Positions 37,772-39,701 of a stretch of DNA of 64,000 bases are shown here, piece by piece. The position numbers and the translations under genes are program-made. Origin of the DNA: Saprospiraceae bacterium (lineage in GTDB: Bacteria > Bacteroidota > Bacteroidia > Chitinophagales > Saprospiraceae); assembly GCA_029251525.1 (NCBI GenBank), contig JAQXDE010000038.1, positions 1 to 64,000 of the forward strand, read 5' to 3'. Position 1 is the first letter of the stretch, and each line of letters opens with the position of its first letter. The notes beneath the pieces were generated by a model. That model searched no databases. It worked only from the letters and a program-made list of their open reading frames with translations, and had not been told where the DNA came from.

Positions 37772-38350
37772 TTATGAATGTTTTTTTTCTGAAATTAAAT
37801 AGGTTAAATTGTATTCCATTTGGTTTTTAGAAGGAGCGAGCATTCCTGTGCATAGGCATATCTTACGATTGTTGCGTGTGAGAATATCAAAATTAGGACA
37901 ACTTCTACAGCTTTTCCAGAAGGCATCGTCTTGAGGTAATTCTGAAAAAGTTACAGGATGATATCCTAAGGAAGAATTGATTTTCATGACAGGTAGGCTT
38001 GTTGTAATTCCAAATATTTTCGCATTAGGAAATTTATTTCTAGCGTGATTAAAAACATGACTTTTTATTTTTTTTGCTAAACCATATCCTCTGAAATTGG
38101 GTGCAACGATGAGTCCTGAGTTGGCGACATATTTTCCATGTTCCCAAGTTTCGATATAACAAAATCCTATGAAGGTGTTTTTTAACAATGCTATTACCGC
38201 ATTACCACTTTTAATTTTTTGTTCAATATAATTGATATTTCTTTTTGCAATACCAGTTCCTCTCAATTTGGCAGATTGCTCAATTGTTTTGCAAACCTCT
38301 TCAGCGTATTTTAAATGTGTGTCTGTTGCAACTTTTATTTCGAATTTCAT
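37772..38350 (-). CDS. GNAT acyltransferase, likely first arginine-pathway enzyme
   Basis: 192 residues, counting from the ATG at 38350 (an upstream in-frame ATG adds 24 unconvincing residues). The acetyl-CoA loop is VAPNFRGYGLAKKI (R-G-x-G-x-A), and the fold is a single GNAT domain. As the first gene of a complete arg operon lacking argA and argJ, it is the best candidate for the N-acylglutamate synthase; the acyl donor could be acetyl- or succinyl-CoA. The C-terminus carries CRSCPNF and KICLC, two paired cysteines that look like a small metal site. That feature appears in similar arg-operon GNATs of Bacteroidota to my recollection, but I cannot verify it here. Confidence 0.8.
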   Translation of the reverse strand: MKFEIKVATDTHLKYAEEVCKTIEQSAKLRGTGIAKRNINYIEQKIKSGNAVIALLKNTFIGFCYIETWEHGKYVANSGLIVAPNFRGYGLAKKIKSHVFNHARNKFPNAKIFGITTSLPVMKINSSLGYHPVTFSELPQDDAFWKSCRSCPNFDILTRNNRKICLCTGMLAPSKNQMEYNLTYLISEKKHS

Positions 38351-38510
38351 TTTTGATAAGTTTTTAGAATAGACAATAAAATACCTAGCCGTCCGAAGGG
38401 TGCTTTGTCTTAGATGAAACAAATATCGAACTGGTAAAGACTAATAAAATAGAATGTAAGTGTATTGTTGCATTGTAGGGTAAATTCAGATTACTCTGAA
38501 TACTCCTTAT

Positions 38511-38682
38511 TAAAAAGTGATCTTTCTTGGAAAGAACGGTAGAAACAAAATTCTACCCGCAAAGGTATTATATGTTGAAATTACGCCCGATAGGGCGGCA
38601 TGAACGAGAGAAGAAACGACGAGGCGACGGTGCTAGGACAGCACTCGAAAATGAACTTTTGTATGTCGTTGTTTTTAACATT
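38511..38682 (-). ncRNA. Candidate structured leader RNA of the arginine operon
   Basis: Downstream of the minus-strand promoter at 38689-38720 the predicted transcript folds into a run of hairpins: GUGCU/AGCAC (38630-38644) extended by CGA/UCG, CGCCC-UAUC-GGGCG (38584-38597), GGTAGAA/TTCTACC (38538-38557) and TCTTTC/GAAAGA (38521-38535) followed by five U. The block 38582-38647 is about 60% G+C in a strongly AT-rich genome. No protein frame is convincing. It may be a cis-regulatory leader or attenuator of the arg operon (first ATG at 38350), or a free small RNA ended by the last hairpin. No known family was recognised. Confidence 0.5.
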
Positions 38683-38688
38683 GTTGAC

Positions 38689-38720
38689 CAAATGTAAACT
38701 TGGTTTTCGAGAAAAGCAAA
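38689..38720 (-). promoter_or_regulatory. Promoter for the arginine operon leader
   Basis: On the minus strand, TTTG (complement of 38717-38720), a 20-base spacer and TACATTTG (complement of 38689-38696) match the Bacteroidota consensus exactly. Start of transcription is expected near 38682. A second TACCTTTG at 38560-38567 lacks a -33 element. Confidence 0.7.
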
Positions 38721-38882
38721 ATTTTGGAATTTATGCTATCGAATGATAGTAAAATTTAATTTGGATTTTTTTGAGAAATCATTATTTATAGAATGGGTTG
38801 TTTTGATCATTAATAATATTTACCATGTTTAGGATTATATTAAAAAGGATAATTTTTTTTGAGAAATAAATATATTATAAAA

Positions 38883-38925
38883 AAAAAGCCTTTTTAGTGT
38901 TCCAGAAAGCCTTTTTAATAGCTTA
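38883..38925 (-). terminator. Weak terminator after the LEA-like gene
   Basis: On the minus strand two copies of AAAAAGGCTTT lie 21 bases apart, the second followed by a long T-run. An AAAAAG/CTTTTT pairing is possible but imperfect. Confidence 0.35.
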
Positions 38926-38929
38926 ATAT

Positions 38930-39421
38930 TTATTTAATATTAGTTGAATTGTCCACTAAGTTGTCTGTATTGTCAATGACATTACCTAAAACATCACCTG
39001 TTATTTCCTCAGTATGATTATTGCTTTCATCAACAGAGTCGTTAGCGTCTTTAACGACCTGGCCTACTATATTTTTTAAACTATCAATTAAATCACCTGT
39101 ATTACTAGAGATCGTATCATCAGCATTTTTAATGTTTTTTACAACATTATCAGCCACATCAACTAAATCTTTTATTTTTTTAGGTGTATTATCGATCGTA
39201 TCGTCGGCCATATCAATCACAATTTCTGTCACTTGTTTTGCACTTTCTGCAAAATTGCTTGCTTTATCTAAAACAGTTTCTTTCATGTCTTTTGCAACCT
39301 CTTTTGCATCTTTGGCGATGTCACTTGCTTTTTCGTTAACATCATCTGCTATATCTACAGCATTTTCAACTAAAACTTTTGTAGGACCAAAAAATCCCTT
39401 AATAAAATTGAATAATTTCAT
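38930..39421 (-). CDS. LEA-like amphipathic repeat protein
   Basis: 163 residues from the ATG at 39421, where MKLFNFIKGFFGPTKVLV forms a short hydrophobic start. The rest is repeats built around aDDVadaka-like units (DIADDVNEKASDIAKDAKEV, VIDMADDTIDN, DAVNDS-type), rich in Asp, Lys, Val and Asn, with no Cys. This periodic amphipathic pattern recalls LEA, apolipoprotein or YtxH-like stress proteins, which often are disordered until dehydrated or membrane-bound. No enzyme motif. It is a single gene beside the tRNA. Function is a guess. Confidence 0.6.
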   Translation of the reverse strand: MKLFNFIKGFFGPTKVLVENAVDIADDVNEKASDIAKDAKEVAKDMKETVLDKASNFAESAKQVTEIVIDMADDTIDNTPKKIKDLVDVADNVVKNIKNADDTISSNTGDLIDSLKNIVGQVVKDANDSVDESNNHTEEITGDVLGNVIDNTDNLVDNSTNIK

Positions 39422-39627: not shown

Positions 39628-39701
39628 TAGCGAGAGGCGGGCTTGAACCGCCGACCTCGGGATTATGAATCACGCGCTCTAACCAGCTGAGCTACCTCGC
39701 C
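39628..39701 (-). tRNA. tRNA with anticodon CAU, probably Met
   Basis: A 74-base cloverleaf on the minus strand: acceptor GGCGAGG pairs with TCTCGCT (G-U at both ends), D-arm AGCTCAGCTGGTTAGAGC, anticodon loop TTCATAA, and T-arm GGCGG-TTCAAGC-CCGCC. CCA is not encoded. The G1-U72 pair and lack of initiator features argue for elongator Met, although Ile2 with modified CAU cannot be excluded by eye. The anticodon stem CGTGA/TCCCG has a U-C mismatch in the middle. A consensus promoter lies just upstream. Confidence 0.92.

Follow-up and report, generated by a model that had tools for sequence, protein, structure and literature searches.

A candidate arginine attenuator with an arginine-rich leader peptide in front of the arginine operon of a Saprospiraceae bacterium

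How is arginine synthesis controlled in a Saprospiraceae bacterium whose arginine genes follow a long leader with several hairpins? We addressed this question in positions 1–64,000 of contig JAQXDE010000038.1 (assembly GCA_029251525.1); this whole analyzed stretch of 64,000 nucleotides is referred to as the window. Leader and operon lie on the minus strand (Table 1). An earlier note on this DNA had claimed a promoter consisting of TTTG, 20 bases and TACATTTG, a leader exceeding 300 bases, and an operon of eight arginine genes starting at 38350. All three could be confirmed: the promoter occupies 38720–38689, the leader spans approximately 330 bases, and the eight genes run from 38350 to 30258. 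The first gene encodes a GNAT-family acetyltransferase which, judged by its position in the operon, probably acylates glutamate; the frames of the seven genes argG to argH are all open and begin with ATG. Both promoter boxes are also found in three other members of the genus (four-member alignment), and the TTTG represents the −33 element of such promoters. The pattern TAnnTTTG has been named as the −7 box (PMC9723704). Upstream of the leader, on the same strand, lie a tRNA-Met (39701–39627) and an ORF weakly resembling YtxH (39472–38930, below the Pfam cut-off) that is followed by a T-run.

Table 1. Coordinates of promoter, leader elements and operon genes in the window.
Feature	Position	Strand	Description
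Bacteroidota-type promoter	38689..38720	-	TTTG 38720-38717, 20-base spacer, TACATTTG 38696-38689
Leader-peptide ORF	38681..38568	-	37 codons, MLKTTTYKSSFSSAVLAPSPRRFFSRSCRPIGRNFNI; ATG 7 bases after −7 box; stop codon 38570-38568
Hairpin P1	38597..38584	-	CGCCC-TATC-GGGCG; within last Arg codons of ORF; model R1 match
Segment A	38567..38563	-	TACCT; directly after stop codon; pairs with B
Segment B	38558..38551	-	GGGTAGAA; pairs with A or with C
Segment C	38544..38538	-	TTCTACC; 3' arm of terminator-like hairpin B:C, tail GTTCTTTCC
First gene, GNAT-family acetyltransferase	38350..37772	-	PF00583, 30.7 bits (cut-off 20.7)
argG	37770-36559	-	best NCBIfam match, below curated cut-off
argC	36547-35582	-	passes NCBIfam curated cut-off
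argD	35561-34410	-	best NCBIfam match, below curated cut-off (profile scan run on 35618-34410)
N-acetylornithine-type carbamoyltransferase	34400-33444	-	passes NCBIfam curated cut-off
argB	33447-32665	-	passes NCBIfam curated cut-off
argE/dapE-type deacylase	32647-31586	-	best NCBIfam match, below curated cut-off
argH	31589-30258	-	passes NCBIfam curated cut-off

The part of the leader next to the promoter had been described as approximately 170 bases with four to five hairpins. The last of these hairpins (38557–38538) is present; most of the region is an ORF of 37 codons that had been overlooked. The G+C-rich block noted there exists as well (38597–38584), and it consists of the last Arg-Pro-Ile-Gly-Arg codons of the ORF. 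All five Arg codons of the ORF are CGT (four) or CGC (one), two codons that account for 12 of the 61 Arg codons in the eight operon genes (CGA 24, AGA 21, CGT 10, AGG 3, CGC 2, and CGG 1), with the reservation that hairpin P1 also constrains the codons of the ORF. When the four genus members were aligned, the three indels inside the ORF were 3 bases long each, and the first 1-base indel was located at the stop codon of locus L009. Codon changes between the window leader (L006) and L007 comprised 10 non-synonymous and 5 synonymous ones, i.e., no purifying selection on the peptide was visible in this pair; three genus members retain five Arg residues at shifted positions. Reading frame and Arg number are kept, and the peptide sequence is not. 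Judged by the position of the promoter, the ORF would be nearly leaderless. To our knowledge, Bacteroidota are a phylum without Shine-Dalgarno sites. Leaderless mRNAs amount to 5.5% in Flavobacterium psychrophilum (PMC9723704). A second ORF in the leader, MQQYTYILFY (38473–38441), was rejected as a leader peptide, as it contains no Arg and its ATG is absent in L007.

Downstream of the stop codon, segments A, B, and C can form two alternative hairpins. Pairing of A with B uses 38558–38554 of segment B, and pairing of B with C uses 38557–38551, so that A:B and B:C are mutually exclusive; a combination of this kind was rare in dinucleotide shuffles of the window leader (p = 0.016, 60 shuffles). 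B:C (7 pairs, loop of 6, 5 T in 8) is the only terminator-like site on the minus strand in 38300–38960 (two on both strands, 0.2 expected). Its tail is a weak U-tract, and 187 bases separate C from the first gene. Between B:C and the first gene, a block CGGACGGCTAGGTATT at 38395–38380 is near-identical in three of the four genus members.

Taken together, we consider it probable (roughly 0.8) that the leader acts as a ribosome-mediated transcription attenuator which responds to arginine via an Arg-rich leader peptide. The mechanism proposed here is classical attenuation, as in hisL and trpL, which are ribosome-mediated attenuators with leader peptides. Shared features are a biosynthetic operon for one amino acid, a short ORF enriched in codons for that amino acid, and competing hairpins downstream of the ORF. 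The present leader differs from the his and trp attenuators in the amino acid (arginine), a start codon that follows the −7 box by only 7 bases, a U-tract that is weak in most family-set leaders, an extra hairpin (P1) at the end of the ORF, and CATAT motifs. Comparison between genomes supports this reading through the presence and conservation of an ORF biased toward Arg, the two competing hairpins, and a near-exclusion with ArgR; translation, stalling, early termination, and the hairpin prevailing in each state would be its predicted parts. A ribosome would begin to translate at 38681, very close to the 5' end of the transcript, and read toward the Arg codons. With plentiful Arg-tRNA, it would reach the stop codon adjoining A and mask A, B would then pair with C, and transcription would stop early. 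With scarce Arg-tRNA, it would stall at the Arg codons, which end 15 bases short of A, and leave A free to form A:B; B:C could not form, and RNA polymerase would continue into the eight genes. The Arg-codon bias and the competing hairpins lend good support to the earlier note's suggestion that the last hairpin could be an attenuator. Its idea of an arginine-responsive leader fares well on the same grounds, with the modification that the sensor is likely a translated leader peptide and not an arginine-binding RNA fold.

The Arg-rich ORF was then compared across upstream regions of GNAT orthologues, of which 191 were collected (173 non-redundant). A first collection comprised 55 loci, 51 of which were used (L026 and L027 were duplicates, and L024 and L025 were truncated or of poor quality). 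The further 140 regions included 75 family matches and 65 regions picked for genus spread from a sample of 392 genomes; with the earlier loci, the 75 regions cover all 89 family matches except G023. ORFs defined by place (ATG 3–10 bases after TAnnTTTG, 10–60 codons) were found in 60 of the 173 non-redundant leaders, were missing from 113, and occurred twice on reverse strands. Arg made up 23.1% of the residues in these ORFs, compared with 5.4% when the same DNA was read in its two other frames. An ATG ORF with at least four Arg in its last 15 codons was present in 99/173 leaders vs. 13/173 reverse strands, i.e., 65/90 vs. 8/90 in the family set, which was named by hand for this count and for the terminator count below, and 34/83 vs. 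5/83 in the others. With three start codons allowed, an Arg ORF was found in 60% of all 191 leaders, 14% of reverse strands, and 8% of shuffled sequences. A looser rule (three start codons, any 15-codon stretch) separated poorly, with 127 vs. 75 of 173, and our claim therefore rests on the place-anchored and last-15-codon tests. Leaders of Marinifilum and Labilibaculum carry several short Arg-containing ORFs in series, e.g., MIQLFYIRRRRMSAPLGKADLVLLSCNQ, MKSIIFTESRRHLRSNCYPGG..., and MKTNNSLKFRRRWFR... within the 600 bases before the GNAT gene of L040; similar ORFs were seen in L036–L039, L041–L048, L050, and L060. T-run hairpins lie between the serial ORFs in L036 and L040, and such arrangements could possibly represent tandem attenuators.

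A C-terminal R-R-P motif recurs among the peptides of the family set. In fungi, the arginine attenuator peptide causes nascent-peptide ribosome arrest by arginine, and the motif would be consistent with a similar arrest here, triggered by free arginine instead of uncharged tRNA. We regard this as very unlikely: N-terminal peptide sequences vary widely among the leaders, the five Arg in three genus members are kept although their positions move, and the nucleotides encoding RRP and RPIGR are those that form hairpin P1.

Competing hairpins were searched for in the 83 leaders that remained after four near-identical ones had been set aside. The P1 pattern was present in 47 of these and absent from 36, and the 47 were tested over the 62 bases following P1 against dinucleotide shuffles. 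A:B and B:C pairs reached p ≤ 0.05 in 27/47 leaders, with a combined p-value of 2.4e-18 that is overstated because the leaders are related (L006–L008 closely so). The test was not passed by 20/47 leaders, eight of which lack any such pair; the best pair lies off the conserved place in L071, L078, L096, L097, and L127. Terminator-like sites after the Arg-rich ORF were found in 34/75 family leaders (5.7 expected) and 16/52 others (1.8 expected); at a threshold of at least 6 T of 8, the numbers were 12/75 (2.1 expected) and 7/52 (0.9 expected). For the distance from stop codon to A, 34 of the 47 leaders were used, as eight have no hairpin pair and five, with the best pair elsewhere or doubtful, were dropped by hand; two of the 34 lack an ORF stop near P1, leaving 32 leaders. 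The distance is 0 bases in the window, 0–9 bases in 13/32 leaders (window included), and 14–21 bases in 19/32. A ribosome at the stop codon would therefore not mask A in the latter, and the simple masking model appears to fit the window better than the family.

These distances misfit classical wiring in the 19 leaders. Together with a U-tract behind B:C that is weak both in the window and in the majority of family-set leaders, they would suit another output of the same Arg-codon ORF: instead of using the intrinsic terminator B:C, it could act through Rho-dependent termination, through decay of the RNA, or on translation of the first gene. Salmonella orf34-speF provides an Arg-codon precedent, as ribosome pausing at Arg codons of the upstream ORF alters downstream RNA folding (PMC6386406); this leader differs in controlling ornithine decarboxylase, via Rho and RNase G, with two consecutive Arg codons (PMC6386406). 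In our data, however, hairpin pairs that exclude each other are enriched, terminator-like sites exceed expectation six- to ninefold, long T-runs follow hairpins in the two Marinifilaceae-type leaders inspected (L036 and L040), and C lies a long way from the first gene for a direct effect on its start. An output other than the intrinsic terminator is thus unlikely in our judgement.

The his operons of relatives provided a test of specificity. Short ORFs with at least three His in 12 codons were located upstream of hisG in 17 of 18 genomes, including the window's own; his leaders were drawn only from these 18 of 40 genomes, which have a HisG match. In the window's own genome (G000, contig C61 near 22,500, locus L245), a leader peptide with a His run, MIYSAHHHCHHHHQFIQTNGDAMDIVE, precedes hisG. 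Both operons were available for comparison in 11 genomes, in which the arg leaders had four to six Arg and zero to two His in 12 codons; the his leaders had one to three Arg, and at least four His in 10 of the 11. In the eleventh (L247), a His ORF, MTLANLHFHHHHALLS, is located further upstream of hisG.

The His codons in his leaders and the confinement of Arg enrichment to the ORF frame also bear on the idea that the ORF is incidental and the leader is a ligand-binding, riboswitch-like RNA or a separate small RNA, the latter being among the proposals of the earlier note. Folding of the leader is moderately better than chance (z = −1.85 for 38505–38690 and −3.05 for the 340-base fold, 38351–38690), the larger value being in favor of such an RNA. 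A CATAY motif 12–27 bases into the ORF would likewise speak for it, as a pattern at the nucleotide level that occurs in all three frames and in 34/61 leaders vs. 4/177 control windows. On the other hand, no second copy of the leader exists in its own genome (E ≤ 0.001), by which a repeat or mobile element could be rejected as well, and the Rfam covariance models, whose use had been proposed as a check, gave no match at gathering score in the leader (best 26.8 bits vs. a gathering score of 41, on the plus strand). The sole match at gathering score in the whole window was the upstream tRNA, at 39628–39701. Model R1 (P1 and A:B) matched 38597–38531 with 45.3 bits, the window's own sequence being part of the model. 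Of 40 relatives, nine have a single site for this model, in every case in front of the arg operon, and 31 have none; as seven of the nine genomes contributed sequences to the model and the other two are genus relatives of those, the matches show absence elsewhere and not new members. A small RNA is not borne out by this single-copy, operon-bound distribution, and we consider a riboswitch or small RNA with an incidental ORF extremely unlikely.

Conservation in relatives, which had likewise been named as a check, holds for the ORF and the stems, but covariation did not exceed that of shuffled alignments (0.120 vs. 0.109, reached by 129/500 shuffles; 30 sequences, P1 and A:B only). The alignment (A1) used 30 of 35 rows, L069, L078, L094, L109, and L113 having been left out with no test behind the choice. 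As to the CATAY motif, two ACATAY copies flank the Arg region of the window leader, ACATAC (38666–38661) early in the ORF and ACATAT (38575–38570) at its end, and the early copy is conserved in relatives in several frames. A general TTTG-ATG-ACATAY signal was rejected, with 48 genome matches vs. 27 for a reversed-pattern control.

Arg operons are otherwise known to be controlled by the ArgR repressor, which likewise exerts feedback control on arginine biosynthesis, but as a protein. ArgR (PF02863) was found in none of 60 relatives, the window's own genome included; a control search found the domain in 8 of 14 named genomes, among them a Bacteroides. Within the sample of 392 Bacteroidota genomes, 169 had the GNAT gene, 125 had ArgR, and six had both, one of the six (G091) with a borderline ArgR match and an internal stop. 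ArgR is thus nearly exclusive with this operon type, a pattern that rests on few independent events because ArgR presence follows family lines. In the five genomes with clear ArgR (L259–L263), an argR frame occupies the place immediately before the GNAT gene that the leader holds in other species. The ArgR match, 55–121 bases before the GNAT match, sits in an open frame of 157–190 codons whose end precedes the GNAT frame by 16–76 bases. Up to 1,100 bases upstream, no ATG ORF with at least four Arg in its last 15 codons was found. The presence of argR in front of the same operon type suggests that an RNA switch has taken over from a protein repressor in evolution.

Among known systems, leader-peptide attenuation has precedents in the same phylum: clues for it before amino acid operons were described in F. 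psychrophilum, with no arginine operon named in the available main-text passages (PMC9723704). In S. aureus, the rbfL leader peptide uses its Arg codons to detect a shortage of arginine (PMC13009471); it differs in masking the ribosome-binding site of a biofilm regulator, i.e., acting on translation, and in using AGA/AGG codons (PMC13009471). Neither of the known Arg-codon leader peptides, speF and rbfL, precedes an arginine biosynthesis operon according to the available parts of these reports. The available parts of PMC8632094, PMC7366714, PMC4833913, and PMC1262725 contain no mention of an arginine attenuator in Bacteroidota; titles and opening lines of abstracts from a literature search describe none either, and Lopatovskaya et al. 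2010 may list some.

A wider reading is conceivable, which we put forward tentatively and with some doubt: an arginine attenuator could have replaced ArgR throughout those Bacteroidota that have this operon. Its ORF near the promoter would engage ribosome and RNA polymerase almost from the first bases, and the recurring CATAT-A-B-C module together with the hairpin at the stop codon would form the switch, with non-textbook wiring where the stop codon does not touch A. Already as proposed above, the attenuator would explain how arginine synthesis is regulated in the large share of Bacteroidota that do without the usual repressor. Its leader would also lend itself to a simple codon-swap test of how ribosome and RNA polymerase are coupled in a phylum that lacks Shine-Dalgarno sites and makes few leaderless transcripts.
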